This document shows positions 10,995 through 49,349 of a DNA stretch of 51,943 nt, in pieces; within the stretch, counting starts at the first letter, position 1; every line of letters starts with the position of its first letter. The stretch covers positions 1 through 51,943 of the forward strand of contig PLTZ01000066.1 in assembly GCA_003164715.1 (NCBI GenBank), read 5' to 3'. The notes beneath the pieces are model-generated. The model was not told the origin of the DNA and made no database searches. It saw nothing but the letters and a program-made list of their open reading frames with translations. This DNA is from Opitutaceae bacterium. GTDB lineage: Bacteria; Verrucomicrobiota; Verrucomicrobiia; Opitutales; Opitutaceae. A program made the translations under genes and the position numbers.

Positions 10995-11780
10995 TCAGGC
11001 GTCTTTGCAGCGCGCCGCGAGGAAGCCCGTGGCGGCCGCGATGTCGATGTCCGCGACGAGAAGTCCCGGTTTGCCGTAGGGCTGGTAGGCGAGCAGCGAT
11101 CCGTCGGGCCGCGCCACGGCCGACGTCGTCGATGCCCCGGCGCCGGCACAGTTCACGCTCGCGAAATAGCAGGTGTTTTCCGCGGCCCGGCAGAGGATCG
11201 CCTTCTCGTGGAACGAGTTCGCGGGGTCGGCGAAGGCCGCCCTGTAGTTGATGGGTGGGTCCTCGTCGAAATGGGGGTGGAACACGACATGGGCGCCGCG
11301 GCGCGCCGCCCAGCGGACGGTCTCCAGATAGCGCCAGCCCTCATGGCAGATCACGATGCCGAAGGTCAGGGGCCCCGCCTGGAATATGCGCCTTCCCGAG
11401 CCGTGCGAATAGGTCCCCTCCTCGGAGGGATCGAGCTGCACCTTGTCCTGGAATCCGGCGAACGTCCCGTCCCGGTTGATGACGAGCGCCGTGAGCAGCC
11501 GGGAGTTATTGGCCGCGCGCTCGGCCCCGAGGATGACCGCGACGCCCGCCTGAGCCGCCGCGGCCGCGAGGCTCGACCACGCGCGCTCAAGAAACGCCGG
11601 ATCCAGCGGGAGTGCCGGCCTTCTCGCCACCCGGTACCCGGGCACGAAGCATTCCGGGAAGCAGAGGATCCCCGCCCGCTCGCCGGCCGCCTGGGCAATG
11701 GCCTCCCGGGCCAGGGCGACGGATTCCTCGGGAGTGTCCGGGATCCGGAGATTGGCAAGAGCGATGCGAAAAGGGTTCAT
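10995..11780 (-). CDS. Nitrilase-superfamily carbon-nitrogen hydrolase
   Basis: 261 residues from ATG at 11780 (MNPFRIALANLRIP, a normal N-terminal strand of this fold; an upstream extension to 11885 reads as noise). The catalytic triad is visible: Glu43 in CFPECF, Lys113 in FQDKVQL and Cys145 in GIVICHEG, followed by VVFHPH and a C-terminal DGSLLAYQPYGKPGLLVADID segment. Family members hydrolyse amides, carbamoyl groups or nitriles. The residue after Cys (HEG...) and the short length point to an omega-amidase or carbamoylase-like amidase rather than a true nitrilase; the substrate cannot be told. Cytoplasmic. It follows the YXWGXW gene after 114 bp on the same strand. Confidence 0.85.
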   Translation of the reverse strand: MNPFRIALANLRIPDTPEESVALAREAIAQAAGERAGILCFPECFVPGYRVARRPALPLDPAFLERAWSSLAAAAAQAGVAVILGAERAANNSRLLTALVINRDGTFAGFQDKVQLDPSEEGTYSHGSGRRIFQAGPLTFGIVICHEGWRYLETVRWAARRGAHVVFHPHFDEDPPINYRAAFADPANSFHEKAILCRAAENTCYFASVNCAGAGASTTSAVARPDGSLLAYQPYGKPGLLVADIDIAAATGFLAARCKDA

Positions 11781-21763: not shown

Positions 21764-22834
21764 ATGAGAAGACTGAGGGTGGCCGGCCTGAACTTCGACC
21801 ACATGCACATGGGCGACCTCCTGCGCCTGTGCCACGAGAATCCCGGCGTCGAGATCGTCGGCATCTGCGACGAGCGGCGCGAGCGCATGCGGGCGGCCGC
21901 CGCGAGTTTCAATCTACCCAAGGGGCGCGTCTTCACCGACCCCGACCGCTGCCTGCGGGAGACGGAGCCCGATTTCGTGATCCTTTGCCCGGCGACGGCC
22001 CGGCACGCCGACTACGTCGAGAGGGTGGCGCCCTACGGCGTGCACATCCTGGTGGAGAAGCCGTTCGCCGCCTCGCTTCGGGAGGCGGACCGCATGATCG
22101 CGGCGACCCGCAGGACCGGCCGGCTCCTCGCCATCAACTGGCCGCTCCGGTGGTATCCCTGCCATGTGACGGCGCACCGCCTGTTGCGCGAGGGCCGGAT
22201 CGGGGCGCTCCAGGAGGTGCACTACTACGACGGGAACCGGGGGCCGCTCTGGCACCTGGCCGACAAGGTCGAGGTCACGCCGACCGAGGCGATAAAGCGC
22301 CGGAGCTGGTTCTACCGCAGCGACTGCGGCGGCGGATCGCTCCTGGACTACCTGGGCTACGGGGCGACGCTCGGGACCTGGTACCACGCCGGGGCGAAGC
22401 CGGCCGAGGTGACGGCCGTCGCGGACCAGCCCCACGGGCTCGAGGTGGACGAGCACAGCGTGACGATCGCCCGCTATGCGGTCGGCCTTTCGACATTCGA
22501 GACGAGATGGGGCACCTTCACCGATCCCTGGACCCTGCAGCCGCAGCCCAAGTGCGGCTTCGTGCTCAAGGGGGAGGACGGCACGATAAGCTCCTACGAC
22601 TACGAACGGACGGTCAGGGTGCAGACGCGCCGCCGGCCCGCGGCGCGGGATGTGCCGGTCGACACGCTGCGGCCGCCCGGGCGGGACCCGATCTCCTACT
22701 TCGCGCACTGCATCCGCGAGGGGCTTCCGGTGGAGGGCCCGCTGGCGCCCGAGATCGCGCGGATCGGCCAGCAGATCGTCGACAGCGCGATGAAGAGCTC
22801 GCGGCTGCGCCGGACGGTGAAGCTCCTCGAATAA
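21764..22834 (+). CDS. Gfo/Idh/MocA-family NAD(P)-dependent oxidoreductase
   Basis: 356 residues from ATG 21764. N-terminal Rossmann-like fold (RRLRVAGLNFDHMHMGDLLRL...VEIVGICDERRERM) in which the usual GxGxxG loop is replaced by AGLNFDHMH, a variant also seen in GFO_IDH relatives. Then DFVILCPATARHADYVERVA, the family motif ILVEKPFAAS, and the C-terminal substrate domain with FYRSDCGGGSLLDYLGYGA. Members oxidise or reduce sugars and cyclitols at one carbon. It is the first of three tightly spaced genes (1-bp gap to the next) with a second oxidoreductase and a TIM-barrel isomerase, typical of pathways that oxidise, isomerise and re-reduce a sugar or inositol. Substrate unknown. Confidence 0.88.
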   Translation: MRRLRVAGLNFDHMHMGDLLRLCHENPGVEIVGICDERRERMRAAAASFNLPKGRVFTDPDRCLRETEPDFVILCPATARHADYVERVAPYGVHILVEKPFAASLREADRMIAATRRTGRLLAINWPLRWYPCHVTAHRLLREGRIGALQEVHYYDGNRGPLWHLADKVEVTPTEAIKRRSWFYRSDCGGGSLLDYLGYGATLGTWYHAGAKPAEVTAVADQPHGLEVDEHSVTIARYAVGLSTFETRWGTFTDPWTLQPQPKCGFVLKGEDGTISSYDYERTVRVQTRRRPAARDVPVDTLRPPGRDPISYFAHCIREGLPVEGPLAPEIARIGQQIVDSAMKSSRLRRTVKLLE

Positions 22835-22835
22835 G

Positions 22836-23963
22836 ATGATGCAAGAGTCGGTTCCCGGCGGCGGCTACGGACTAAGCGCGGTCTCGGCAGCGGGGGCCGC
22901 CGCCGCACCGGCGCTCGGCTACCTTCCGCCGAGGCCGGCCAGGTACCGGCCGTCCATCGCGCTGATCGGCTGCGGCGGGATTTCCGAACACCATCTCAGG
23001 GCCTACCGGGAGATGGGGCTCGACGTGGTGGCGCTGTGCGACCTTGACGGGGGCCGGGCGGAAAGGCGCCGCGTCGAGTTCTTCCCAAATGCGGCGGTGT
23101 TCACCGACTACCGGAAGGTCCTTTCGCTCGGTGGCGTCGAGGTGGTCGACGTGGCGCTGCATCCGGTCCCGAGGGTGCGGGTCATCGAGGCGGCTCTGCG
23201 GGCGCGCAAGCACGTCCTCAGCCAGAAGCCGTTCGTGCTCGACCTCGGCGCCGGGGAGAGGCTCGCGGCGCTCGCAGAGAGGAACGGGCTCAAGCTTGCG
23301 GTCAACCAGAACGGCCGTTGGGCGCCGCACTTCAGCTACCTTACGGCGGCCGTCCGCGCCGGGGTCGTCGGCGAGGTGGCGAGCATCGACTTCACCCTGC
23401 AGTGGGACCATACGTGGACGGCCGGCACGCCGTTTGAGGACATGCGCCACCTCCTGCTGATAGACTTCGGGGTCCACTGGTTCGACATGGCGGCCCGGCT
23501 GATGCGCGGCCGCAGGCCGGACCGGGTCTGGGCCTCGGCGGTGCGCACCTCGTTCCAGACGCTCAAGCCGCCAATGCTGGCGCAGGCGGTCGTGGACTAT
23601 CCGGGGGCGCAGGTGCGCATCTGCTTCAACGGCCACGTGAAGTTCGGCCAGGAGGACCGCACCGTAATCGCGGGGAGCCTCGGCACGCTGCGCAGCTTTG
23701 GGCCGAGCCTCTCGGAGCAGTCGGTGGAAGTGTGCACCCACGTAGGGCGGGCGACGCCAAAGCTCGAGGGCACATGGTTCACGAGCGGATTCGCGGGCGC
23801 CATGGGCGAGCTGCTGTGCTCCATCGAGGAGGGGCGCGAGCCCGAGAACTCGGCGTCCGAGAACCTCCACAGCCTTGAGCTCGCGTTTGCGGCGGCGCGC
23901 TCGGCCGGCGACGGCCGCCCCAGGGTTCCCGGCACGGTCCGCAGGATCTCCCTCCACCGATGA
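22836..23963 (+). CDS. Gfo/Idh/MocA-family oxidoreductase, second copy
   Basis: 375 residues from ATG 22836 (a second ATG follows one codon later). The Rossmann motif is standard here: IALIGCGGISEHHLRAYREMGLDVVALCDLD, followed by a DVALHPVPRVRVIEAAL stretch and VLSQKPFVLDLGAGERL (EKP motif changed to QKP), then the C-terminal beta sheet with LLIDFGVHWFDMAARLM. The first 35 residues are low-complexity Gly/Ala before the fold begins. It begins one base after the stop of the first oxidoreductase, so the two are translationally coupled, and is followed after 13 bp by an isomerase-like gene. It is divergent enough from the first copy that they are not a recent tandem duplication. Confidence 0.88.
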   Translation: MMQESVPGGGYGLSAVSAAGAAAAPALGYLPPRPARYRPSIALIGCGGISEHHLRAYREMGLDVVALCDLDGGRAERRRVEFFPNAAVFTDYRKVLSLGGVEVVDVALHPVPRVRVIEAALRARKHVLSQKPFVLDLGAGERLAALAERNGLKLAVNQNGRWAPHFSYLTAAVRAGVVGEVASIDFTLQWDHTWTAGTPFEDMRHLLLIDFGVHWFDMAARLMRGRRPDRVWASAVRTSFQTLKPPMLAQAVVDYPGAQVRICFNGHVKFGQEDRTVIAGSLGTLRSFGPSLSEQSVEVCTHVGRATPKLEGTWFTSGFAGAMGELLCSIEEGREPENSASENLHSLELAFAAARSAGDGRPRVPGTVRRISLHR

Positions 23964-23976
23964 GAGTCTTTTCGCC

Positions 23977-24822
23977 ATGAGGAACGTAATCTCGTTCATG
24001 GGCGCCAACTATGTCGCCCGGGAGGTGCGCTGGAACATGCCGGACGGATGGATGCAGGGCCAGAACGCGGTCCACGCCTGGTTCTCGCCGGTCGAAACGT
24101 TTCCGGAGCGGTTCGACGCCCTGCTGCGAGCGGTGAAAGAGCTCGGCTTCGACGCGTTCGACATCTGGGACGCCCAGCTGCACTGGTCGTGGGCGACGGA
24201 AAGGCATCTTGAGGCGGCGCGCGACCTTCTGGGAAGGCGCGGCCTCGCGGTGCCGAGCCTGGCCGGCCATTTCGGCGCGACGCCCGAGGAACTCCGCTCC
24301 GTCTGCCGCGTGGCGCGGGCGGTTGGGGCCTCGATCCTGAGCGGAGGCACCCCGCTCCTCTCGGAGTGGTGCTCCGGGCTCGTCTCAGAGCTGCGCGGCC
24401 AGGGTCTAAAGCTGGCAGTCGAGAACCACGCCGAGAAGACCCCGGAGGAGCTCCTCGGCAGACTGGGGAAGGGCGACGAGGACGTCGTCGGCGCCGCGGT
24501 CGACACCGGCTGGTTCGGGACCCAGGGCTACGATGCGGCGCGCGCGCTCGAGCAGCTCGCGCCGAGGCTATTCCACGTCCACCTTAAGGACGTTAAGGCG
24601 CGGCGGGCCGAGAAGACCGGCTTTCAGCTGATCGACATGGGCCACGAGACCTGCGGGCTGGGCGCGGGGATCGTCCCGGTCGCGGGATGCGTGAACGCCC
24701 TCGGGCGGTGCGGGTACGCCGGGCCGATTGCGATCGAGCATGAGCCGGAGGATTTCGACCCGAGCGACGACTGCCGCAGGAGCCTCCTGTACCTGAGGCA
24801 ACTTATTGAGAAACTGCCATGA
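23977..24822 (+). CDS. Sugar phosphate isomerase/epimerase-like TIM-barrel protein
   Basis: 281 residues from ATG 23977 (RNVISFMGANYVAREV). AP_endonuc_2 / xylose-isomerase-like barrel: ERFDALLRAVKELGFDAFDIWDAQL, GLKLAVENHAEKTPEELL (metal-ligand Glu), VVGAAVDTGWFGTQGYD (Asp), LFHVHLKDVKA (His) and IAIEHEPED (Glu). These are the four expected metal ligands. The fold covers inosose dehydratases, hydroxypyruvate isomerases and ketose epimerases. Paired with two Gfo/Idh/MocA enzymes, a dehydratase or epimerase acting on an oxidised sugar or inosose is the most likely role; the exact substrate is not evident. It ends the operon; a hairpin follows at 24864. Confidence 0.85.
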   Translation: MRNVISFMGANYVAREVRWNMPDGWMQGQNAVHAWFSPVETFPERFDALLRAVKELGFDAFDIWDAQLHWSWATERHLEAARDLLGRRGLAVPSLAGHFGATPEELRSVCRVARAVGASILSGGTPLLSEWCSGLVSELRGQGLKLAVENHAEKTPEELLGRLGKGDEDVVGAAVDTGWFGTQGYDAARALEQLAPRLFHVHLKDVKARRAEKTGFQLIDMGHETCGLGAGIVPVAGCVNALGRCGYAGPIAIEHEPEDFDPSDDCRRSLLYLRQLIEKLP

Positions 24823-24863
24823 GTGCGAACCCTTTCGCAGTGGCTTGCCTGAGGAGGCTGCTT

Positions 24864-24902
24864 GCCTGCCGTTCGCTAACCGACGGCGGCTGACCGGCAG
24901 GC
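24864..24902 (+). terminator. Hairpin after the sugar-oxidoreductase operon
   Basis: GCCTGCCG (24864-24871) pairs perfectly with CGGCAGGC (24895-24902). The loop itself holds a GCCG...CGGC pairing. It lies 41 bp after the last stop of the operon; no T-run, so efficiency is uncertain. Confidence 0.45.
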
Positions 24903-25051
24903 GCCACGGCATCGCCTGTGGGCCTGATGCGGGGCTCGACAGCCTGCTCCAAAGCGCTATTTGATTCATTCCTTGCGTCGGGGCGAGGGGCCTTGGACAA
25001 GATAAGATCGGGATCGAGGCGTACTCTCGCACCGGTTCTATTGGTTTGGAT

Positions 25052-25127
25052 GTCCCTGTAGCTCAAGTGGATAGAGCATCGGTTTCCTAAACCGAGTATT
25101 CCGGTTCGAGTCCGGGCGGGGATACCA
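25052..25127 (+). tRNA. tRNA-Arg (anticodon CCT)
   Basis: Acceptor stem GTCCCTG pairs with CGGGGAT (one G-T at position 1-72 and one at 6-67), discriminator A, and CCA is encoded (25125-25127). D arm GCTC...GAGC, anticodon stem TCGGT/ACCGA with loop TTCCTAA giving anticodon CCT, T arm TCCGG-TTCGAGT-CCGGG. All arms have normal length. It decodes AGG (Arg). Its 3' end is the likely landmark used by the Tn7/Tn5053-like element that starts 27 bp downstream. No other tRNA is in the window. Confidence 0.95.
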
Positions 25128-25164
25128 ACTTTTGGCGGCTTCCGACTCCTGGTTTGTCGTTCGG

Positions 25165-25276
25165 ACCAATTCTCTGACCAGAAGTAAGCGAATTGGTTCA
25201 GATTCTATGGTTGTCGAATTGCTTCCGGAATGCGGCGTTAGTTTGGAGAGCACGTTAAGGGCAGCGAATTGCTTCC
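25165..25276. repeat. Repeated motif array in transposon end (candidate TniA/TnsB-binding sites)
   Basis: CGAATTGGTTC at 25189, CGAATTGCTTC at 25215 and CGAATTGCTTC at 25265 are the same element (CGAATTGSTTC) in direct orientation, starts 26 and 50 bp apart. The 25215 copy is preceded by TGT (TGTCGAATTGCTTCC), like the proposed terminus at 25155. ACCAATTC (25165-25172) is the inverse of GAATTGGT (25190-25197). Several short repeats inside each end is the arrangement bound by TnsB-family transposases in Tn7 and Tn5053 relatives. Confidence 0.6.
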
Positions 25277-25319
25277 TCGAATTTTACAATGCCTAGACTT
25301 TCAGTCTGGGTTCAAAACG

Positions 25320-25342
25320 AAGGGCGGCTTTTGGCCGCCCTT
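25320..25342 (-). terminator. Intrinsic terminator after tniQ
   Basis: AAGGGCGGC (25320-25328) pairs with GCCGCCCTT (25334-25342), 9 bp with a 5-nt loop. On the minus strand the stem is followed by CGTTTTG, a short T-run. It lies 2 bp past the tniQ stop codon, so it should end the tni operon transcript before the tRNA. Confidence 0.75.
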
Positions 25343-25344
25343 CT

Positions 25345-26802
25345 TCAGTCTTGGGCCTCTTCAAGGCTCCAAAATGCTCTTACGTCAACGGGTATGCGTT
25401 TTGGTCTCAGGACCGATTGATCGCCCGTCCGATACCGCCGTTTCAGCCACTTGATGTAAGACCTCGCCGTCGCTCCGCTAAGTGAACCCGGGGAATTCAT
25501 ATGCGGACGCACGGCTCCTTGCCCCGGTCTCCTGTTTATGCTGATCGCCTTGATGGCGGCGGCGTGAACATCACCCACGATCCGCCACACAAGTTCCTTT
25601 TTAAGGAAGCGACGCTCCTTTTCCCGTAGCAGTGCGATGAGCCGTACGAATTCAGCGTCCTTCCATGAAGGATGCTTGGCGTGGGTTCCCGAGGCTAGTT
25701 CCAGGTCTCGAACTCGCGGTGCGAGGAATGGGTTTGCGGCCGAGAGCTTTAACGTGGATAAGTAGAGCGCAGTGGTATCGTTGGGGACCGGCGTTCGCCT
25801 TTTAGGCTTCGTCCGTCGCGTCAATTCCTCGGGTAATGGCCTGAAACGGAGTTCGCTCAGAGTCAGCTTTTCAGAGAAGAGACGCGGCAATTCTGCACCA
25901 ACTATCCAGGCCCACTTGAGTGCCGAATCCAATGGCATCCTTCCCCCTTGCCCAATCCATGTCCGAGCTGTGGATCTTCCGAGTCCAAGTTTGGTCGACA
26001 GGCTGACCACCCCGCCGATCCCCGGGATCTGACTAGACAGCCTGAGGTTATGAGTTCGGACATCGATATGCCGTGTTTCTAGTTCGCCTCTTGAAGCCCA
26101 GCGCAATAACTCTCCTGTCTGTTTGCTACTCCAATAGGCGAAATCGTCATTTTGTGGGATGATTCCGAGCTCTGGGTCGCTGAATATGTTTCGTGGGCTG
26201 CCGCACCACATGCATTTGAGGATGTCGGATCTGCCGGAAAAGAGCCGCTGAGGTTTCCCGCAATCACGGCACAGTGTATCTAAAGGCGTCCCATGCTTTG
26301 GGCAGTGAGTGACACCGGCGATCGTCCAAATGAGACGGGCGAAGGGATCGGAGTCCTCGGCAAGGCAGACACGGCACCATGCCAAATCTTTTCTTAACCG
26401 CACTTCGAGGCCTGCAGTTCGGCAAACAGGTACCAACGTGAGACGCTCAAGACCCTTTCGGCCAGTCAATCGCTCCAGGAGGCGCGAAACCCGAGTCCCA
26501 AATGTAACGCCGTGAACGGCTTCAACGAGGTTTTGCCAGTCGCCACGACTTTCTCCGGCTCGCCGGCTACTCCCAAGAAGCTCTCGAACGTACTGACTAA
26601 GATGCTCCGTCAATAGGCATTTGAAGCGGACTGAATGAGCATCGGCTAGTCGATGCAGATAGCTCCAAAGAGATTCGACGTCGCCGGTGTCAAGGCCGTG
26701 CGGAACCAGGCTCATGAGTTGGCTCCGCACTGGTATTTTAACTGGCGACAAATCGATTTCAGGTAAAGTCCGGTCCGGCACCAGAAGCTCTGGAGTGTTC
26801 AT
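25345..26802 (-). CDS. tniQ: TniQ/TnsD-like transposon target-selection protein
   Basis: 485 residues. Residues about 30-60 match the TniQ start (MSLVPHGLDTGDVESLWSYLHRLA). Two Cys-type zinc sites follow: C143-C146...C167-H170 and C178-C181...C197-C200. Residues about 240-310 contain a helix-turn-helix-like stretch (LSTKLGLGRSTARTWIGQGG). The basic C-terminal half (about 320-480) resembles the DNA-reading extension of TnsD-type proteins rather than the short TniQ of CRISPR-associated transposons. TniQ family members bind target DNA and recruit the AAA+ regulator TniB/TnsC. Its length and position next to the tRNA-proximal end suggest it reads the tRNA-Arg site itself. It starts 1 bp after the tniB stop, so it is translationally coupled. 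Confidence 0.85.
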   Translation of the reverse strand: MNTPELLVPDRTLPEIDLSPVKIPVRSQLMSLVPHGLDTGDVESLWSYLHRLADAHSVRFKCLLTEHLSQYVRELLGSSRRAGESRGDWQNLVEAVHGVTFGTRVSRLLERLTGRKGLERLTLVPVCRTAGLEVRLRKDLAWCRVCLAEDSDPFARLIWTIAGVTHCPKHGTPLDTLCRDCGKPQRLFSGRSDILKCMWCGSPRNIFSDPELGIIPQNDDFAYWSSKQTGELLRWASRGELETRHIDVRTHNLRLSSQIPGIGGVVSLSTKLGLGRSTARTWIGQGGRMPLDSALKWAWIVGAELPRLFSEKLTLSELRFRPLPEELTRRTKPKRRTPVPNDTTALYLSTLKLSAANPFLAPRVRDLELASGTHAKHPSWKDAEFVRLIALLREKERRFLKKELVWRIVGDVHAAAIKAISINRRPGQGAVRPHMNSPGSLSGATARSYIKWLKRRYRTGDQSVLRPKRIPVDVRAFWSLEEAQD

Positions 26803-26803
26803 C

Positions 26804-27769
26804 TCAACGTCCTCCTTCTGGTTTTGTCAGACCGTCGAAGAAAATCCTTAGGTTCTCGTGGCCATTGGCTATTTCCGCACGCCACTTGCTAACGGAGCCC
26901 GCAGGAAAACGTGTCGATTCGAGAACTTTCCGGTCAATGGTTCGACCGGTACCTCGCTCGGCTATCCACGCGCTCTCAAGCCACCGTTTTAGCAGGCCCA
27001 CGCAGCCACTCGTTTCATCGAACAATAGGTCCGATGCGCCGCTGAGGTCGGCGGGTACATTTTGGCCGCGAAGCCGTTTCTCAAATGTGCCAACGACCAA
27101 ATCAAATTGGTCTTTATATCCCACTGGGTAATTCGAGAAGTGCATAATATGGCAGCGGCGATTTAGCTGAGCATTGAGGGTACTCATCTTCGCCAGTCGA
27201 TAATCGCCGAATATCACGAGATGTGTGTGTGAGCGGTTCCCAATCGACTTTAGAAACCCGAGAACCCGATCGAGACTTTCGTCTGAATCGGATTCCACAA
27301 ATGAGCCCCCTTCGTCGATAATAGCTGCGGGTGGCGCATGTCTCAGCAGCATGGTATTCACTGCGGAAGCCAAGCCCTTCAGGTTGGGCTTTTCTGGTGG
27401 CCATTCTTTGGCCACTTTTCGGTTTAGCAGAATTTCATTGGCGTCGCTGAGGAGACCAGTGAAAAGGCCTTCCCAATCGAAACCGCGGGTCGGAACATAT
27501 ACGGCTTCAGCGTAGACCTTATGGAGCCGTGATGGATCGTCCTTCATCGCGCTCGCCATCCAGATCGCGAGCTGCGAAATGAGGTGCTGGATCAGGGTGG
27601 TTTTTCCCGCGCCTGTTGGCCCAATTACGAGGAGAACAGCTGATTCGCTGAGGCAAAAGATGCGTTCCATAATCCATTGGAATACACGCTCATAGAACGC
27701 ATGACTGCATGCCCAATTGGCGAATGGTGAGCGTTGGCCATTCGCCTCTGACGATTGAATGTTGTCCAT
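26804..27769 (-). CDS. tniB: TniB/TnsC-like AAA+ ATPase, transposition regulator
   Basis: 321 residues. Walker A is IGPTGAGKTTL (residues 49-59), Walker B AAIIDEGG (148-155), followed by a sensor-1 region HLVIFGDYRLA and an arginine-rich stretch NAQLNRRCHI. This is the usual TniB layout, with AAA_22-type fold. The family forms ATP-dependent filaments or rings on target DNA and activates the DDE transposase TniA at sites marked by TniQ. The gene sits 10 bp after the tniA remnant and 1 bp before tniQ, the normal operon order. Sequence looks intact. Confidence 0.88.
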   Translation of the reverse strand: MDNIQSSEANGQRSPFANWACSHAFYERVFQWIMERIFCLSESAVLLVIGPTGAGKTTLIQHLISQLAIWMASAMKDDPSRLHKVYAEAVYVPTRGFDWEGLFTGLLSDANEILLNRKVAKEWPPEKPNLKGLASAVNTMLLRHAPPAAIIDEGGSFVESDSDESLDRVLGFLKSIGNRSHTHLVIFGDYRLAKMSTLNAQLNRRCHIMHFSNYPVGYKDQFDLVVGTFEKRLRGQNVPADLSGASDLLFDETSGCVGLLKRWLESAWIAERGTGRTIDRKVLESTRFPAGSVSKWRAEIANGHENLRIFFDGLTKPEGGR

Positions 27770-27779
27770 GGTGGCACCT

Positions 27780-28310
27780 CTAGCTCACGCTTACTGCCGT
27801 GTTGGAGAAGCCAGGAATCGGCGTCCGGGGTGAAGGATCGCCGCTGGATGTGGACTTGGGCTCGTCATCATCGTCAAGCTTCGGAGGCCTGATCGAGTCT
27901 AGGAACTGTTTGGCCGATTCCTTGGTCCTGAGGAGTTGGGCAAGAGCTTCGCCCGACTTCTGCTGCGTATCGAGAAATGCGTCCACTTTCTCGAGGGTTG
28001 CCTCACGAGCCCGATTGTAGTCGGAGCGCCCCTTACGGATATTTAGGCTCGCCGCGGCAAGATCGACTTCCGAAAGCCTGCGAAGTTTTAGGAGCTTAAT
28101 GCAGTCACACTGCACCCACTCGTCCCGAACGAATGCGTAGACCTTTGTGATGTCGAGCGGATGGGGTAGAAGGGTTTCGCGACAAGACATGTGCCCCCGG
28201 TCTGCCGTGTTCCATATTTCATTAAACCCGTTAGGGCGAATATTAGAAGTCCCAAGTACAACGAATGGCGCGGAACGTTGCACTTGATGTGGGGTGGCTT
28301 GGAATCGGAG
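27780..28310 (-). pseudogene. tniA: tniA (DDE transposase) C-terminal fragment
   Basis: Open from about 28310 to the stop at 27780, about 175 codons. It has the post-catalytic beta-barrel signature of Mu/TniA transposases (TSNIRPNGFNEIWN, then LDITKVYAFVRDEWVQCDC) followed by a helical C-terminal tail (SLNIRKGRSDYNRAREATLEK) and an acidic PPKLDDDDEP end that in relatives contacts TniB. The catalytic DDE core and N-terminal DNA-binding domains are missing; an in-frame stop lies at 28311-28313 and no other frame upstream continues the protein. A GTG at 28283 could start a non-catalytic peptide. Truncation makes the element non-autonomous. Confidence 0.75.
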
Positions 28311-28406
28311 TCATTAGGCCGAGTTGGGTAAATTCTGCGCAAGAAACATATATTGTTTCCGTGTCGCCTGTGGGGCATTCGGAACCAGACTGATGGGACT
28401 AATGTT

Positions 28407-28928
28407 ATGAAAAGCCCGCGAAGCTTCGTTGTCTTTCTCGTGTTTAGCTTCTGCTTTGGCAGTTGCTCGCGTCAGCCGGCTCCGCCGACTGAGAGAGAAG
28501 CCAGGGCCACATTGTTGATGGAGCAAACCTTCAAGGGTTCAAAGGAGTATTGGTTCGCGGCGAATAGGCTGTCTGGAGGGAAGAGATTCCAACTGGTCGA
28601 ACTGCACAACCCAAGCACGTCGCTATATTCGGTTCCAGTCAGCGAGACGGACCGAATGAACGGCTTATCGGACCGGTTCAAGCTCGTCGTCGAATGCGAT
28701 CAGTGGCGTACCTGGGACGGAAAGTGGACTCCCTGGAAGGAAGGGACTGGTGGCAAGGCAGCTCTGACCAATACGATGTTCCCTAGTGCAGCGGTGGGCT
28801 TCTGGGTAATTCAATTCGAAGCCGTGAACGGAGAGTGGCATACAAGGAATACCTTCGGGATTAGTGATCTTGCGCAGGACAAAGTGGCGCTCGATTCGCT
28901 CATGCGGGACGCTAATGTCACGCCTTAG
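28407..28928 (+). CDS. Putative lipoprotein of unknown function
   Basis: 173 residues from ATG 28407. The N-terminus (KSPRSFVVFLVFSFCFGSC followed by SRQPAPPTE) is a lipoprotein signal with lipobox FGSC, and a Pro-rich linker follows, so the mature protein is probably anchored to a membrane by Cys. The rest (about 30-170) is a compact mixed fold with several Trp (WRTWDGKW, VGFWVIQFEAVNGEW) and no motif I recognise. It lies between the broken tniA and the IS66 remnant, divergent from tniA, with AT-richer composition than the host blocks. It may be cargo of the transposon or a separate acquisition. Confidence 0.5.
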   Translation: MKSPRSFVVFLVFSFCFGSCSRQPAPPTEREARATLLMEQTFKGSKEYWFAANRLSGGKRFQLVELHNPSTSLYSVPVSETDRMNGLSDRFKLVVECDQWRTWDGKWTPWKEGTGGKAALTNTMFPSAAVGFWVIQFEAVNGEWHTRNTFGISDLAQDKVALDSLMRDANVTP

Positions 28929-29085
28929 GGCATTTTGGTTCCGGATAGCCGCACCAAAATTGAGGAAATGGTGCGTTTAACTTAATCGGGGCCTCGACTG
29001 TTCGTAAGATTTCTCCCTTTAACACCTGGAGCTGCGCTCTATTCTGCGGAACTACGGGTCCCAAAATGAATTTCTCCCTCAAACC

Positions 29086-29736
29086 TCACCACATAATTGC
29101 CCATTGGATTCCAGGGTTTTTTGTTGTCCTGCTGTCGACGCTTATTTGCTTCCTTTTCTTGGGCCTTCCACTAGCCGAGCTAGGCGCAACCAGCCCGCTC
29201 ATTCTCTTCATCATTTCCGGGGTGACCAGCCCCGCCGAGGCGTAGCCTCCCACGAACGGGCGCTTCAGTGCCGGCGCCACCAGCGGCGGCCGGCTCCGGT
29301 CCAAAAGGTGCCGGTATTTCGGGCGAACGATCATCCGCTTGTACAGCTGCGGATGGACGATATCGACCTCGAAGGTCGTTTCCTCCCCGATCCGCTCGTA
29401 CAGGTCCGGGTCCGCCTTCACTTCCGGAGGGATGATCTCGATCGTCTCCCTGACCGGAAGCTTATCAAATATTTCTCCCGGCGGCTGCCGCGGCGCCCCG
29501 GGCTTCTGCCGCTCGTAGCTCACCCGCTCCGTCGTCGCCTCCGCAATCCTGGCCTCGAGCTGGCCCAGCGTGAGGAGAAGCTGCGCCTTGTCCTGCTTCT
29601 CGTTCTTGCCCGATCCGAAGACTTGTTTCTTAAAGATCGCCAGCTCGGCCTTCAGGTCCGCCACTTCCTCCGTGAGGCTGTTCACCTTGCCCTTCAGGGC
29701 CTGGTTCTCCTCGAGGACTAGTTCGATCGGAGGCAT
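29086..29736 (-). pseudogene. tnpC: IS66 transposase TnpC, N-terminal part only
   Basis: 216 codons. The start is typical for TnpC: a leucine-zipper-like coiled coil (residues about 8-40, ENQALKGKVNSLTEEVADLKAEL), KKQVFGSGKNEK, a zinc-binding/IS66 central region with PPEVKADPDLYERIGEETTFEVD and PKYRHLLDRSRPPLVAPALKRPFVGGYASAGLV. After that point, where the catalytic DDE domain should begin, the sequence turns into an unrelated basic tail (PKKRKQISVDSRTT) and stops. All catalytic residues are absent. Confidence 0.85.
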
Positions 29737-29775
29737 TGTATAAGTGCTTAGGATACAGCATAATACGTGCCATGT

Positions 29776-30120
29776 TCACCGCTCGTACCATGCCTTCTGA
29801 CAACCGTCTTTCAGATCAATTCCGCCGATCAACATCGTCAAGGCCTCGGTCGTGAGCGACAGCTTTTTCTGGTCACTGCCCACCGGCCAGGTGAACCGAC
29901 CCTTCTCCAGCCGCTTCGCCATTACCCACACCCCCGTCCCGTCCCAATAGAGCATCTTAAGCCGGTTGCGCTCCTTGTTCGCAAAAACGAACAACGCTCC
30001 CGTCCGTGGGTTTTCACCGAGGTGGAGCTCCGCCTCGGCCCACAGCCCGTCAAAATGCTTTCGCATGTCCACCGGCTCCACGCCCAGGTAGATCCTCCAC
30101 GTCCCGGGGAAGCCAAACAT
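29776..30120 (-). CDS. tnpB: IS66 accessory protein TnpB
   Basis: 114 residues. Family signature from the start: FGFPGTWRIYLGVEPVDMRKHFDGLWA, then LFVFANKERNRLKMLYWDGTGVWVMAKRLEKGRFTWP. TnpB (IS66 Orf2) is required for IS66 transposition but has no known catalytic site. Its start codon shares bases with the stop of tnpA at 30120, the usual translational coupling. Intact. Confidence 0.93.
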   Translation of the reverse strand: MFGFPGTWRIYLGVEPVDMRKHFDGLWAEAELHLGENPRTGALFVFANKERNRLKMLYWDGTGVWVMAKRLEKGRFTWPVGSDQKKLSLTTEALTMLIGGIDLKDGCQKAWYER

Positions 30121-30482
30121 CAGCGCAGCCCCCGCACGAGCGCCGCCAACGGCCTTGCCTCGCTGCCCCTCACGATCAATCCGTCAGGCAACACCACCTC
30201 CAGGCAATACCCGGTCGCCACCCTCGGGAACCCCAGCTCCACGAACCGCGGCCCACCGATCGGCGGCTCCTTCGCCTGCGCCTGCGCCAGGCGCTTCTGG
30301 CGCAGCCAGCCCGCAAACGTGAACGGATTGATCCCTTCCCTTTGCGCGAACGCACGCTGCGTCATCCCGCTCGCCGCGTACCCCGTCAGCAGCGCCTCCT
30401 TTTCCTGCGCGTCCGCAATCCGCCGCCCCCTCTCGTCGTGCTTCGCGAGTTGCAGCGTCTCGACGACGGCGGAGGATTTCAT
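30120..30482 (-). CDS. tnpA: IS66 protein TnpA (helix-turn-helix)
   Basis: 120 residues. After a short leader, DAQEKEALLTGYAASGMTQRAFAQREGINPFTFAGWLRQKR is the IS66 OrfA helix-turn-helix, likely binding the element's ends; a C-terminal FVELGFPRV...LEVVLPDGLIVRGSEARPLAALVRGLR segment is also typical. Intact and coupled to tnpB by overlapping stop/start. Confidence 0.9.
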   Translation of the reverse strand: MKSSAVVETLQLAKHDERGRRIADAQEKEALLTGYAASGMTQRAFAQREGINPFTFAGWLRQKRLAQAQAKEPPIGGPRFVELGFPRVATGYCLEVVLPDGLIVRGSEARPLAALVRGLR

Positions 30483-30680: not shown

Positions 30681-32633
30681 CTACGTCGCCTGCTTTTCAT
30701 CCACCAACTCAGCGTCGATGACCGGTTCTTCGTCTTTCTTGCTGAAATCATGGTCGTGATCCGCGTCCGGTGGATTGCCGGGTCCCGGGCCATCAGGACC
30801 TTGGTCCGCGCGGGTCTTCTCTGCTGGCGCTTTATGCAGGTCCGTCGAAACCGCCTGGCAGGCTTCGTTGAGCTTTCCGCTGGCCGCCTTGATGGCTGCC
30901 GCGTCCATGCCCTTCAGCGCGGCCTTCACCTCGTTGGCGGCGGCCTCGAGCTTGCCCTTGTCGTCTGCGGAGAGCTTTTCCGCGTTGTCCTTCATCATCT
31001 TCTCCGTGCGATAGACCGCGCTGTCGGCCTCGTTGCGTGTCTCAAGCTCCTCCTTGTGCTGCCGATCCTCGTCGGCATGGAGTTCGCCGTCCTTGCGCAT
31101 CCTCTCGATCTCATCCTTTGAGAGGCCGCTGCTGGCCGTGATGGTGATCTTCCGCTCCTTGCTGGTGCCGAGGTCCTTGGCGCTCACGTGGAGGATGCCA
31201 TTGGCATCAATGTCAAAGCTCACCTCGATTTGCGGCACGCCGCGCGGGGCAGGCGGAATGTCATCGAGGTTGAAATTGCCGATGGTCTTGCTGTCCTTGG
31301 AGAACTGGCGTTCACCCTGCAAGACATGGATTTCCACGCCGGATTGATTGTCCGCTGCGGTTGAAAACGTCTGGGTTTTGCGGGTCGGGACCGTCGTATT
31401 GCGCTCGATCAGCTTGGTGAATACCCCGCCCAGGGTTTCAATGCCGAGCGACAGCGGCGTCACGTCGAGCAACAGCACGTCCTTGACCTCGCCCTTGAGC
31501 ACACCGGCCTGGATGGCGGCGCCAATCGCAACGACTTCGTCCGGATTAACGCCTTGGTGAGGAGCCTTGTCGACCAGCGTGCGCGCGGTTTCGACGACGC
31601 GCGGCATGCGGGTCATGCCACCAACGAGCACGAGCTCGTCGATCTTCGCCGCCTCTATGCCGGCATCCTTCAAGCACGCCTTCACCGGCGCGAGGGTGCG
31701 CTCAAAGAGCTTGTCGGTGAGCTGCTCCATCTTGGCGCGGGTGAGTGTCTTCTGGATGTGCTTCGGCCCGCTCGCGTCCGCCGTGACAAAGGGCAGGTTG
31801 ATGTCGTAGGTCGTGGCGCTGGACAGGGCGATCTTGGCCTTTTCAGCCTCTTCCTTGATGCGCTGGAGCGCCTCAGGCTGCTTGCGAAGATCCATCCCCG
31901 ATTCCTTTTTGAACTCATCGAGGATCCAGTCCATCAGCAGATTGTCCCAGTCGTCGCCGCCGAGGTGCGTGTCGCCGTTGGTGGCCTTTACCTGGAAAAC
32001 GCCGTCGCCGATTTCGAGTACCGAAATGTCAAACGTGCCGCCGCCCAGGTCGTAAACCGCGATCTTCTCGTCCTTTTTCTTGTCAAGGCCGTAGGCGAGC
32101 GAGGCTGCAGTCGGTTCGTTGATGATCCGGAGGACTTCCAGGCCTGCGATGCGTCCGGCGTCTTTCGTGGCCTGGCGCTGCGAGTCGTTGAAATAGGCTG
32201 GAACCGTTATGACTGCTTGCGTGATCTTCTCGCCCAGCCGCGTTTCTGCGTCGGCCTTCAGCTTGGACAGGATTATCGCGGAAATCTCCGGCGGCGAGAA
32301 CCGCTTGGCCTTGCCGTTCACTTCGACTTCGACCGCGACGTCTCCGTTGCTCGCCCTCACGACCTTGTAAGGCACCCGTTTGATCTCTTCCTGCACCTCG
32401 TCAAACTTGCGGCCCATGAAACGCTTGATGGAATAGACCGTGTTGCGCGAATTCGTGACGGCCTGGCGCTTGGCGGCGTCACCGACGATTCGCTCCCCGG
32501 ATTTGGTGAAAGCCACCACCGAAGGCGTTGTGCGCTTGCCCTCGGAATTTTCCAGCACTGCAGGCTCCCCGCCTTCAATGACTGCCATGCAAGAATTTGT
32601 GGTGCCTAAATCAATGCCGAGTATTTTTGCCAT
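30681..32633 (-). CDS. dnaK: Chaperone DnaK (Hsp70)
   Basis: 650 residues, full length. ATPase domain (about 1-380) with [65 protein letters not shown] and [14 protein letters not shown]; substrate domain (about 390-505) with [16 protein letters not shown] and QGER; helical lid after that. The tail is atypical: an acidic/His stretch ([17 protein letters not shown]) precedes [12 protein letters not shown], so the C-terminal EEVK-like motif is not conserved. Last gene of grpE-dnaJ-dnaK on this strand, but 195 bp separate it from dnaJ and a TTAGG-N6-CCCCATAG motif lies 90 bp upstream, implying its own promoter. Probably a second, island-borne DnaK rather than the housekeeping copy. Confidence 0.97.
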
Positions 32634-32722
32634 AAAATCGTTACCCCGTGGTGATATTCCGAGTCTGCTGTCGCGAATGACCGCTTCTTTGGATGTACGA
32701 TACGCCCGCGGCTGGTTTCTCT

Positions 32723-32744
32723 CTATGGGGTAATAACCTAAGGG
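32723..32744 (-). promoter_or_regulatory. Stress-block motif copy 1, upstream of dnaK
   Basis: Minus strand CCCTTAGG-N6-CCCCATAG (32744 to 32723; spacer TTATTA), 90 bp upstream of the dnaK ATG. The CCCCATAG part resembles a sigma-32 -10 element, but no CTTGAA lies 13-17 bp before it, so it may be a promoter for another sigma factor or an operator. Confidence 0.55.
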
Positions 32745-32828
32745 CGTTCGCCGTGAATTCTGCTCGGAACACCCGGTGGGGGCTGCGACGGCCGTTGATT
32801 GAATCGGCCGCCCAAACGGGAACCCCTT

Positions 32829-33827
32829 TCAAGCGGTTTTCCGCGGATTGAAGGTGGATGAGGCCGCCAGCTCTTTCCACAAGCGCTCATCCTCCTTGCC
32901 AATTTGCGAGGGGACTTGGACGGATGCCTCGATGTAAAGGTCCCCGTGTTTGCCGGCGCCTGCGGGCAACCCCCTTCCCCGAACGCGCAGCTTTTGACCT
33001 TGTTGAAAACCGGCAGGAATCTTGATGGAAACGTGCCCTTCGAGCGTCTGCACTCTAACTGTCGCCCCCAGGACCGCCTCCCACGGCGCCAACTCCAGAT
33101 GGCCGATTAAATCGAAGCCGCGCACCTGCCAATCAGGATGCTGGGCATATCGCACCCGCAAATAGATGTCCCCTGCACTGCCCCCGTTCGAGCCCTCTCC
33201 CCCTTTGCCCGGCAGTCGAATGGACTGACCGGCATGGACACCTTTCGGGACTCGGACTTGGTAGGTTTCCGTCTCTTCCCGGCCGGTGCTGGCATTGGTC
33301 CGCCGCACCGAAATGGCGCGCACGGCCCCGTTCAGCACCTCATCAAGCGTGATGAGAATGTCGCCTTGAATGTCGTGGCCCCGCCGTGCTCTCGCCGCCT
33401 CCCCTTGGCCGTTGGAGAACTCTTGTGAATCAAACGGTGATGCTCCGCGAGGCTGGCCAGAGCGTCCGCCAAAAAACTGCTCAAAAAAGTCGCTGAAGCC
33501 CGTCCCCCCAAATTGAAAATCCTCCCCTCCGCTCCGCGCCCCGCGTCCGGTGAATTGCGCTCCGGAACGACCCGGCGGTGGCCGCGACTCCGCTCCCGTT
33601 TTCCAATCGGCGCCCAGCTGATCAAACTTCCTGCGGCTCTCCGGGTCGCTCAAGACCTCATTGGCTTCGTTGATCTCCTTGAATTTCTCCTCCGCCGATT
33701 TCTTGTCCTTGGCGACATCGGGGTGATACTTGCGCGCGAGTGTGCGGAAAGCCTTCTTGATTTCATCGTCGGTCGCCTTGGGCGTCACCCCAAGCACGCG
33801 GTAATAGTCTTTGAATTCAACGGGCAT
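32829..33827 (-). CDS. cbpA: DnaJ-class co-chaperone without zinc finger (CbpA-like)
   Basis: 332 residues. J domain at about 6-70 with the HPD motif (His35-Asp37 in LARKYHPDVAKDKK), a Gly/Phe-rich linker to about 140 (FGGTGFSDFFEQFFGGRSGQ), then the two C-terminal substrate-binding barrels (DIQGDILITLDEVLNGA, VRVPKGVHAGQSIRLPGKG, GDIYLRVRY, VSIKIPAGFQQGQKLRVRGRG). The CxxCxGxG zinc-finger repeats of class A DnaJ are absent, so this is class B/CbpA-like. It stimulates DnaK ATPase through HPD. Its start overlaps the grpE stop by 11 bp, so both are one transcript. Confidence 0.92.
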   Translation of the reverse strand: MPVEFKDYYRVLGVTPKATDDEIKKAFRTLARKYHPDVAKDKKSAEEKFKEINEANEVLSDPESRRKFDQLGADWKTGAESRPPPGRSGAQFTGRGARSGGEDFQFGGTGFSDFFEQFFGGRSGQPRGASPFDSQEFSNGQGEAARARRGHDIQGDILITLDEVLNGAVRAISVRRTNASTGREETETYQVRVPKGVHAGQSIRLPGKGGEGSNGGSAGDIYLRVRYAQHPDWQVRGFDLIGHLELAPWEAVLGATVRVQTLEGHVSIKIPAGFQQGQKLRVRGRGLPAGAGKHGDLYIEASVQVPSQIGKEDERLWKELAASSTFNPRKTA

Positions 33828-34362
33828 CGTGACCTTGCTTGGAAGCCGTCAGGTCGTTGACCTGCACCTTTGCAGGTCGGATTGCTTTCTCACCCCGGCG
33901 GTAGCCGCGCTGGAGAACCTTTAGAATGGCGTGGTCGGGCTGGGCCGGATCATGGCCTTGCGAAAGCGCTTCATGCCGATGCGGATCGAACGGCTTGCCG
34001 ACGATTTCGTCACTCTCGACACCGTGCCGCCCGAGCAACTGCCGAAGTTGCCTCAACGTCATCTCAACACCCTGATGAAACTGCGCTGAGTCGCACGAGG
34101 AGCCAGAAGCCAGGGCTCGTTCGAGATTGTCGATGACTGGCAACAGTTCAGCGATGAACGCCTCCTTTTGCGCGACCGCGCGGGTTTCAGCCTCCTGGCG
34201 GCTGCGCCGCTTGAAGTTCTCAAAGTCTGCAGCCAGGCGCAGATGCAAATCTTTTTGTTCGGCGAGATCCTTGATGAGGGCTTCTGATTCTGTGGTCGTC
34301 GGCTCGGCAATTTCTTTGGCTTCCGGTGTGGCCGATGGCCGTGTTGTTGACTCGGTTTTCAT
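33817..34362 (-). CDS. grpE: Nucleotide exchange factor GrpE
   Basis: I place the start at ATG 34362 (MKTESTTRPSATPEAKE), which has an AGGA 11 bp upstream; ATG 34374 in the same frame overlaps the stop of the upstream gene (ATGA) and is the alternative. About 181 residues: acidic disordered N-terminus, long coiled-coil helix (LIKDLAEQKDLHLRLAADFENFKRRSRQE), the four-helix region (ELLPVIDNLERAL) and the beta-wing (GVESDEIVGKPFDPHRHEAL, AILKVLQRGYRRGEKAIRPAKVQV). It releases ADP from DnaK. It lacks the usual DP.H..A spacing only slightly (PFDPHRHEA). First chaperone gene of the minus-strand block. Confidence 0.93.
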   Translation of the reverse strand: MKTESTTRPSATPEAKEIAEPTTTESEALIKDLAEQKDLHLRLAADFENFKRRSRQEAETRAVAQKEAFIAELLPVIDNLERALASGSSCDSAQFHQGVEMTLRQLRQLLGRHGVESDEIVGKPFDPHRHEALSQGHDPAQPDHAILKVLQRGYRRGEKAIRPAKVQVNDLTASKQGHDAR

Positions 34363-34370
34363 AGATAGCG

Positions 34371-34559
34371 TCATCCTGGTTTGGGATGCTTTCTGCCGGA
34401 GCCGCTCCTTTTGCCGCCACCGGAGAGCTTGTTCACGGTGGCCCATGCCTGCGCTTCTGCAGTTTTCATGCTGACACCTTTCTTCTCGTAGCCGGCTTCG
34501 ATGTATGCCGCCTGTCGTCTCTGCTTGTCAGTATAGCTGGATTTGTCGCCCTGGGGCAT
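34371..34559 (-). CDS. Small basic hydrophilic protein, stress-associated, function unknown
   Basis: 62 residues: MPQGDKSSYTDKQRRQAAYI, then EAGYEKKGVSMKTAEAQAWA and TVNKLSGGGKRSGSGRKHP. This Lys/Gly-rich short protein is widespread in Proteobacteria and soil bacteria and is sometimes labelled plasmid stabilisation protein without real evidence. It resembles small disordered stress proteins. Its TGA overlaps an in-frame ATG of grpE at 34371-34374, so it leads the chaperone transcript. The motif GCCTTAGG-N6-CCCCATAG lies 42 bp upstream of its start, a good promoter distance. Confidence 0.75.
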   Translation of the reverse strand: MPQGDKSSYTDKQRRQAAYIEAGYEKKGVSMKTAEAQAWATVNKLSGGGKRSGSGRKHPKPG

Positions 34560-48266: not shown

Positions 48267-49349
48267 TCACTTTCCACTGAGGTTGCGTACAAAGGCGCCA
48301 ATGGATTCAGGCGACAGGACGTGCATGGCGGCGCCCCGGCGAATCGCTTCGCCCGGCATGCCGTGCACGACCGAACTGGCGGCGTCCTGGGCAATCGTCA
48401 GCCCACCCCGGCTCCGAATGAGACCGAGCGCATCGGCGCCATCGGTGCCCATGCCGGTCAGCAGAACGCCGACGGCGGACTTGCCATATGCCGCGGCGAC
48501 TGAACGGAAAAGATACCCGACCGATGGCCGCAAACCGTCTTCGGGCGGACTGGCCTCAAGTGTGATTCGCAATGAGCCATTGACGCCCAGGTGGGTGCCG
48601 CTCCCGGCGACGTAGACGTGACCAGGCAACGGCAGCTCACCGCCGGTGGCAATGTGCACCGGCAGTCCGGTCGCCTGGATCAGCCATTCGCAGAATCCGG
48701 CCGTAAATCCGTCGCAGATGTGCTGGACGATGAGGATCGGGAACGGCAGATCCTTCGGCAACGCCGCCAGGATAGTGGCGATGGCTCCCGGTCCGCCCGT
48801 CGAGGCGCCGATGGCGACGATCCGGATTTCCGATCGAGTCGGCGCCGGCATAACCAGTGAAATCCCTCCTGTTCCGCCTTCACGCTTTGGCCAGCGCCTG
48901 ACCATCGGGACCCCAGCCATCGTGCGCACGGTCTCGACGAGTTTCGCCGCACTCGCCTCAAACTTCGGGTGCCCGATTCCGTGCGGCCGAGGCACGGCGG
49001 CCAGCGCGCCGGCTTCGAGTGCGCGGAAGGCCGTCACGGACTCCGTTACCGTGGAACTCCCGCTGACGATCACAATCGGGGTCGCACGGGTCTCCATGAT
49101 CCGGCGGGTCGCCTCGAACCCGTCCAGCTTGGGCATGTGAATGTCCATGGTGATGACATCGGGCCGGCAATCACATGCCATGGCGACAGCCTGTTCGCCG
49201 TCGTGCGCCAGACCCACGACCTGAAAGTCCGGCACTAGATTCAGGATGTGCGTCAGAAAATCGCGTATCACGGGAGAGTCCTCGGCCACCAGCACACGGA
49301 TCCGGCAGTTGGCGGACAGAGGAGGCGGAACGGTGACAGTGGTGTTCAT
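48267..49349 (-). CDS. cheB: Chemotaxis-type protein-glutamate methylesterase CheB
   Basis: 360 residues. Receiver domain (about 15-130, Asp69 in VITMDIHMPKLDG), linker, and methylesterase domain from about 168: catalytic Ser in IVAIGASTGGPGA, His in ILIVQHICDGFTAGF, Asp in LLTGMGTDGADAL. It removes methyl groups from MCP glutamates when phosphorylated by CheA. Gene order after CheA-REC is that of wspF. CheR is not in the window and may lie beyond its right edge. Confidence 0.95.
   Translation of the reverse strand: MNTTVTVPPPLSANCRIRVLVAEDSPVIRDFLTHILNLVPDFQVVGLAHDGEQAVAMACDCRPDVITMDIHMPKLDGFEATRRIMETRATPIVIVSGSSTVTESVTAFRALEAGALAAVPRPHGIGHPKFEASAAKLVETVRTMAGVPMVRRWPKREGGTGGISLVMPAPTRSEIRIVAIGASTGGPGAIATILAALPKDLPFPILIVQHICDGFTAGFCEWLIQATGLPVHIATGGELPLPGHVYVAGSGTHLGVNGSLRITLEASPPEDGLRPSVGYLFRSVAAAYGKSAVGVLLTGMGTDGADALGLIRSRGGLTIAQDAASSVVHGMPGEAIRRGAAMHVLSPESIGAFVRNLSGK

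Follow-up and report, generated by a model that had tools for sequence, protein, structure and literature searches.

The stretch of DNA analyzed here (the window) is the whole of contig G000:C59 of a draft genome, 51,943 bases in length, and holds a single tRNA gene as found by ARAGORN, a tRNA-Arg(CCT) with an encoded CCA. Beyond its 3' end lie a transposon end and a short run of transposition genes on the opposite strand, which together with their surroundings comprise the following features:

25052..25127, plus strand: tRNA-Arg(CCT), the attachment gene (ARAGORN; Rfam RF00005, 57.7 bits)
25128..25154, no strand: 27-bp spacer from CCA to the transposon end; its closing TGGTT would count as the 5-bp target duplication, given a far end
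25155..25333, plus strand: target-proximal transposon end, TGTCG... (repeats and the homologous end in genome G006)
25320..25342, minus strand: hairpin AAGGGCGGC..GCCGCCCTT, a probable terminator for the tniQ-side operon
25345..26802, minus strand: TniQ/TnsD target selector, 485 aa, open (Pfam TniQ; PDB 8v32/9bw1 TnsD; fold)
26804..27769, minus strand: TnsC-type AAA+ regulator, 321 aa, open (PDB TnsC; TnsC of relative L092)
about 27780..28226, minus strand: C-terminal stub of a TnsAB transposase (tblastn with L092 TnsAB)
28353..28928, plus strand: small ORF matching no known family, either cargo or flank (within the same low-GC stretch)
29086..30482, minus strand: IS66-type remnant with truncated tnpC (Pfam LZ_Tnp_IS66 for 29086-29736; two smaller ORFs by position alone)

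The TGT at 25155 opens the transposon end 27 bp beyond the CCA of the tRNA, just where the initial annotation had placed a TGT-type end, which confirms that observation. The motif GCGAATTGSTTC, allowing at most one mismatch, occurs as direct sites at 25188, 25214 and 25264, with a single further copy at 48339, while GGACCAATTC, an inverted relative of this motif, occupies an outer site at 25163-25172. A mean of 0.8 copies is expected and none of 100 shuffles gave the four that are observed, so the clustered repeats mark the end above chance. In G006, which belongs to another species of the same genus, the homologous end is 83% identical to that of the window over 178 bp and begins 26 bp beyond the CCA of a tRNA-Arg(CCT) gene. 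A DNA match covers window positions 25049-25333. That the two genomes share this end, yet show DNA similarity beginning only at the tRNA, suggests that G006 and the window represent separate insertions; the end in a further genome, G005, may stem from the same insertion as that of the window, since upstream DNA is common to both. Neither G005 nor G006 gave a TniQ match, and it is the end alone that is homologous. Next to its solo end, G005 also has a 6.4-kb region (L047 9308-15646) that contains a tRNA-Arg-like fragment of 45 bp and two tRNA-Arg(CCT) genes.

The GC content of positions 25155-28990 is 54%, vs. 69% for 22000-25051 and 60% for 30700-34450, and the contrast is therefore mainly with the left flank. 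More broadly, GC ranges from 54 to 66% rightwards of the tRNA (24001-50000) vs. 66-70% between 6 and 24 kb, and the first 6 kb of the window are likewise low (57-61%). The right half of the window could be cargo or an island.

The target selector is a long TniQ protein (Pfam E 5.3e-14). Its cysteines at 143, 146, 167, 178, 181, 197 and 200 and histidines at 166 and 170 fit the two zinc sites that had been proposed on first reading; seven of these residues do not vary among four aligned sequences. Its best PDB match is the TnsD of 8v32/9bw1 (E 2.8e-20, residues 18-442), structures which we take to be of the element of Peltigera membranacea cyanobiont 210A (PmcCAST). The second-best match, to the small TniQ of 8fcu, covers residues 17-189 only. 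A fold model of the protein, built from 7 sequences with a mean pLDDT of 62.9 and thus of low confidence and used as support only, has 8v32_J as its sole match with E <0.001 (E 1.4e-9). The adjacent TnsC matches the TnsC common to 8fcu, 8v32 and 9bw1 (E 6e-19) and is 41% identical over 307 aa to the TnsC of relative L092.

Of the transposase, roughly the last 150 aa remain. The stub is a 167-aa ORF without a Pfam match, in which positions 28226-28011 match residues 758-827 of the L092 TnsAB by tblastn (43% over 72, E 6e-10); a search with the same protein found no nuclease or DDE domain of TnsAB in the window. The L092 protein itself is long and of the TnsAB-fusion type, matching the 898-residue chain of 9bw1 over residues 25-821 (E 4.6e-89). 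On the other side of the balance, the L092 TniQ matches the TnsD of the same PDB entries over residues 33-188 only (E 3.3e-15). Judged by these homologies, the locus is best classed as what is left of a Tn7-like transposon belonging to the TnsAB-fusion branch, akin to the type I-B2 and I-D CASTs but without CRISPR-Cas: the TniQ/TnsD selector and the AAA+ regulator are both present. Of the fused transposase the window keeps only the C-terminus, the long fusion-type protein being that of L092, and of the TGT...ACA ends it shows one, both ends being seen in two relatives (G228 and G015, described below).

What remains is a relic, a point that the initial annotation did not make. Scans for end motifs and for the TSD reached the end of the contig without revealing a far end, with no ACA+TGGTT, and with the far end missing its own 5-bp duplication, which the initial annotation had proposed to look for, is not demonstrable; such duplications were found instead in G228 and G015. 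The window copy is very probably immobile, given that most of its transposase is lost and no far end is seen, and it presumably once had a full TnsAB. Beyond the stub lie the IS66 remnant and then a dnaK operon. This dnaK-dnaJ-grpE operon (30681-34446) is a second copy, with the other dnaK match on contig C18 of the same genome; among 12 other members of the genus, G004 alone has two long dnaK matches.

We compared ten Opitutaceae ends, which lie beside tRNA-Arg(CCT) in three genomes, tRNA-Gly in two (one gene decayed) and tmRNA in five, with the following distances from CCA to the end:

tRNA-Arg(CCT): window, 27 bp; G006, 26 bp (with GGT in the corresponding position); G005, 27 bp (TAT)
tRNA-Gly(TCC): G035 (L060), 24 or 26 bp (TGT in two registers)
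tRNA-Gly-like 3' remnant: G057, 26 or 28 bp
tmRNA: G057, 23 or 25 bp; G296, 27 bp; G228, 27 bp; G033, 28 bp; G015, 28 bp

All ten ends, which were picked because an RNA gene was near, fall 23-28 bp beyond the CCA, a short and nearly fixed distance as in the tRNA-homing TnsD group, and eight of them begin with a literal TGT. As TGT by itself is weak evidence for the position of an end, it is important to consider what else supports each one. Homology backs the window together with G006 and G005, G035 together with the tRNA-Gly copy of G057, and (by eye) G033 together with G228; duplications back G228 and G015; and G296 and the tmRNA copy of G057 are placed by TGT alone. Of the 29 bases at the G035 tRNA-Gly end, 25 recur in the decayed tRNA-Gly gene of G057; this match scores 38, whereas the best of 500 shuffles scored 24. 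From CCA to the end the sequence is unlike in most of the genomes compared, and all ten targets share by eye a T-arm of the form GGYTCRANTCC and the CCA, features of tRNAs in general.

Both ends and a perfect 5-bp duplication were recovered for two tmRNA elements. The element in G228 (L095 6917-11306; 4,390 bp) begins 27 bp past the tmRNA and has its far end at 11306, with TCCTC on both sides. The repeat AATGACAGCTGATGCTTC is found exactly once in each of its ends and, with up to five mismatches, gives 5 matches in the 13.7-kb locus, all of them inside the two ends. Its content is a TniQ and small ORFs with no TnsC or TnsAB recognized, and it is possibly non-autonomous or internally deleted. 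The second element lies in G015, a genome in one contig of 5,957,605 bases (L143/L144, G015:C1:632932-666826), and spans 33,895 bp with the duplication CGGTT. ACA+CGGTT by itself occurs three times in 93 kb of G015, so it is the end repeats that make this duplication credible: GTTTTGCCAACTAGGGGCT, with up to four mismatches, has 2 matches in the same 93 kb, one per end, vs. a shuffle mean of 0.05 (20 shuffles of 35 kb). Besides TnsAB and TnsC, a pair of TniQs and the Wadjet genes JetA, JetB and JetC are encoded in the G015 element (two further cargo proteins that were scanned gave no match), and it is the other operon side, not the TniQ side, that faces the RNA gene. In G228 as in G015, the inner repeats have one orientation at the two ends and are not mirrored, while the outermost sites of these elements look mirrored by eye; Tn7-like ends usually have mirrored sites, according to a passage of PMC8649781.

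No convincing far end of the G296 element appeared within 45 kb and 80 kb of the tmRNA, and an ACA+TSD match at 9.9 kb was rejected as such an end, having no 8-mer in common with the near end. TSD scans gave no match for the far ends of the G033, G035 (L060) and G057 tmRNA elements, and the genes downstream of tmRNA in relatives (14 of 18 loci usable) did not place far ends. No empty site emerged: with the joined G015 flanks as query in 29 genomes, relatives match the tmRNA portion and run no more than 9 bases past it, and for G228 vs. G018 homology ends 4 bp past the tmRNA. The tmRNA 3' end recurs exactly, in the manner left by integrase islands, in G298:C62 (29 bp, at a distance of about 43 kb from the tmRNA gene) and in G297:C185 (23 bp, about 7 kb).

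The window protein, used as query, detected TniQ relatives in 12 out of 189 related genomes. With alignments as queries the tally was 15 of 252 genomes for the family, 11 of 372 for the order and 11 of 387 for the phylum; the genome sets overlap and those of the order and phylum are samples. A contig scan gave no relative with the single-protein query and 6 loci with the alignment query. In 6 of the 26 TniQ loci the 3' end of an RNA gene faces the TniQ stop codon at 217-564 bp; in 3 a tRNA-Met lies in the opposite polarity, with its 5' end towards TniQ (153, 320 and 7101 bp); and for the other 17 the available stretch shows no RNA gene on the side of the stop codon. These 17 include L055, cut by the contig end past a decayed tRNA-Gly, and the two TniQs of G015, which reach tmRNA by the other side, so that 14 of 26 loci, with more distant TniQs, have no link to an RNA gene. 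Weak partial matches in G092, G141, G176, G675 and G691 were left out of this count and of the tree, and ARAGORN found no RNA gene in their stretches. Two other elements have, by eye, a TGT-like end on the TniQ side that precedes the 5' end of a tRNA-Met, by 7 bp at L062 7424 and by about 20 bp at L139 10020; no TSD was found at either, and both were excluded from the count of 3' insertions.

In the TniQ tree (n = 24, with L097 and L091 left out) one group (97/99) is made up of the window, L055, L056 and L092, each located at an RNA 3' end, that of L055 being decayed. A second group (100/100) unites L095 and L138 with both G015 TniQs, and its three elements are all at tmRNA. The G035 TniQ, at tRNA-Gly, sits on a long branch and its place is unsure. 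The RNA-gene rule is thus limited to part of the TniQ tree, given the 17 of 26 loci without a stop-side RNA gene and the three of opposite polarity. It had been suggested that the flanking genes of TniQ relatives be recorded as a check on tRNA targeting, and the outcome is divided: related TniQs at other sites, named there as the refuting case, were found among the distant TniQs only.

These observations are best explained by protein-guided homing, and we hold with high confidence that the window contains the remnant of a Tn7-like element that was guided by its TniQ protein past the tRNA-Arg(CCT) gene. The large TniQ, of the TnsD type, would have bound the 3' part of the gene, TnsC would have bridged it to TnsAB, and the element would have inserted about 27 bp beyond the CCA, leaving the tRNA intact. 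Presumably TniQ itself reads the RNA gene, near the T-arm and acceptor end. Counting against this reading are the missing far end and duplication of the window copy, the many TniQ loci away from RNA genes, the choice of the ten ends by a nearby RNA gene, the ends of G005 and G006 without a TniQ match, the short TnsD match of the L092 TniQ, the unsure place of the G035 TniQ, the reversed operon of G015, the inner repeats of like direction in G228 and G015, and the failure to find an empty site. Because close relatives sit at nearly the same distance past other tRNA genes and tmRNA, the targeting protein very probably recognizes the ends of tRNA-like genes. A broader reading, in which one TniQ/TnsD subfamily reads the tRNA-like 3' end (T-arm and acceptor, in tRNAs and tmRNA) as a class rather than as one gene, we put forward tentatively and think somewhat doubtful.

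It is also possible to suppose that TniQ reads nothing and that regions downstream of RNA genes are merely tolerated. Many unrelated elements do gather at RNA genes, and 14 of the 26 TniQ loci lack any such link. Within the clade of the window, however, the 23-28 bp spacing and a single polarity hold although the sequence from CCA to the end is not conserved, and the homologous TnsD has been described as tRNA-targeting, which leaves opportunistic insertion very improbable. Nor does a tyrosine-integrase island with the Tn7-like genes as passengers, which we regard as highly unlikely, agree with the locus. tRNA and tmRNA genes are common integrase sites, and a tyrosine integrase gene starts at 11332, just outside the G228 element, but the window has no second copy of the 28-nt tRNA 3' end (up to three mismatches), none of the six tyrosine integrase matches of the genome is on contig C59, and the contig thus shows neither mark of a tRNA island. 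Moreover, the end sits 27 bp outside the tRNA gene, and the TGT...ACA ends of two relatives are flanked by 5-bp duplications.

There is similarly little to recommend homing by a short or trans-encoded guide RNA matching the tRNA, as in type V-K elements, which mostly use tRNA genes via separate truncated crRNAs (as stated in part of PMC11406308). A simple exact-repeat test found no array-like repeats in the window, in keeping with the absence of CRISPR noted at the outset, or in 18 other loci, and the array that, with a Cas effector, defines a CAST was thus not found in the window. When four window ORFs were scanned with PADLOC models, TniQ matched TniQ models only and TnsC gave weak ATPase-type matches (best mad8, 5.6e-6; Cas3d, 0.008). 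In four of four elements the longest word shared with the target measures 9-11 nt, at or below shuffle means (for G296 over an arbitrary 9-kb stretch), and the window TniQ is of the large TnsD type with a near full-length match to a protein-guided TnsD. We consider such a guide scarcely probable, and chance was rejected as an explanation alongside it and the integrase island. Protein-guided recognition of a tRNA gene, as first proposed for this locus, is what the TnsD match over residues 18-442, the spacing in relatives and the lack of an array, of a guide-like match and, on this contig, of an integrase all favor.

The arrangement invites comparison with known systems. In Tn7, the large TniQ-family protein TnsD inserts the element about 25 bp beyond glmS, and the tnsA side faces the target gene. 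The window element is alike in its site-specific insertion past a conserved gene and differs from Tn7, with its separate tnsA and tnsB and its glmS target; in the clade of the window it is the TniQ side that faces the target gene. The Tn5053 family (TniABQ) likewise has one TniQ and a three-gene core; it is without TnsA and targets plasmid resolution sites, as outlined in a section of PMC11406308, whereas the relatives here have TnsAB fusions and lie at RNA genes.

The closest likeness is to PmcCAST (Tn7744, type I-B2), whose TnsD, TnsC and fused TnsAB are the best PDB matches (for TnsAB via relative L092). In contrast to PmcCAST, neither Cas genes nor a second small TniQ were seen in the window element, the host belongs to Verrucomicrobiota, and the targets are tRNA-Arg(CCT), tRNA-Gly and tmRNA rather than tRNA-Val; the PmcCAST TnsD is described as tRNA-Val-targeting in a passage of PMC12719977. 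For the type I-B CAST of Peltigera membranacea cyanobiont 210A, PMC12585508 reports that the att DNA is bent and that an arginine of TnsD intercalates at a CC/GG step in it. CyCAST (type I-D, from Cyanothece sp. PCC 7425) shows TnsD-dependent homing 30-33 nt downstream of tRNA-Leu in E. coli, by the portion of PMC10293859 consulted, and is alike in TnsD homing past a tRNA gene, but here the spacing is 23-28 bp and there is no CRISPR array.

Protein-guided tRNA homing is therefore already published for I-B2 and I-D elements, which are TnsAB fusions with a tRNA-targeting TnsD (a passage of PMC11406308), and what is new here is the host and the targets. The suggestion of a tRNA-targeting transposon family at this locus stands as far as tRNA targeting goes, although the family is not confined to tRNA-Arg(CCT) and is of a kind already known. 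Integration of Tn7-like elements downstream of tRNAs, with five Verrucomicrobia host species listed, is also found in part of PMC8649781. Among the matches listed in the open-access literature, none reported a Tn7-like element homing on tmRNA, an absence that carries little weight. The E. coli tmRNA hotspot is said to hold 'transposons' among others in an extract of PMC10121019, ssrA serves as a qPCR reference gene in the relevant passage of PMC12452197, tmRNA appears only in a reference in the portion of PMC10315504 consulted, and the main text of PMC10293859 has no 'tmRNA'.

The locus and its relatives extend CRISPR-free, protein-guided tRNA homing to Verrucomicrobiota and add tmRNA as an attachment gene, and the G015 element is a case of such a transposon carrying Wadjet defense genes. 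Natural TniQs, 31-41% identical to that of the window, with different tRNA-like targets and nearly one spacing provide good material on how TnsD chooses its DNA, a choice that bears on insertion tools free of guide RNA. If the tRNA-like 3' end is indeed read as a class, close relatives could hop among tRNA-Arg(CCT), tRNA-Gly and tmRNA with the ruler of about 27 bp unchanged, and the attachment genes of Tn7-like elements would newly include tmRNA.
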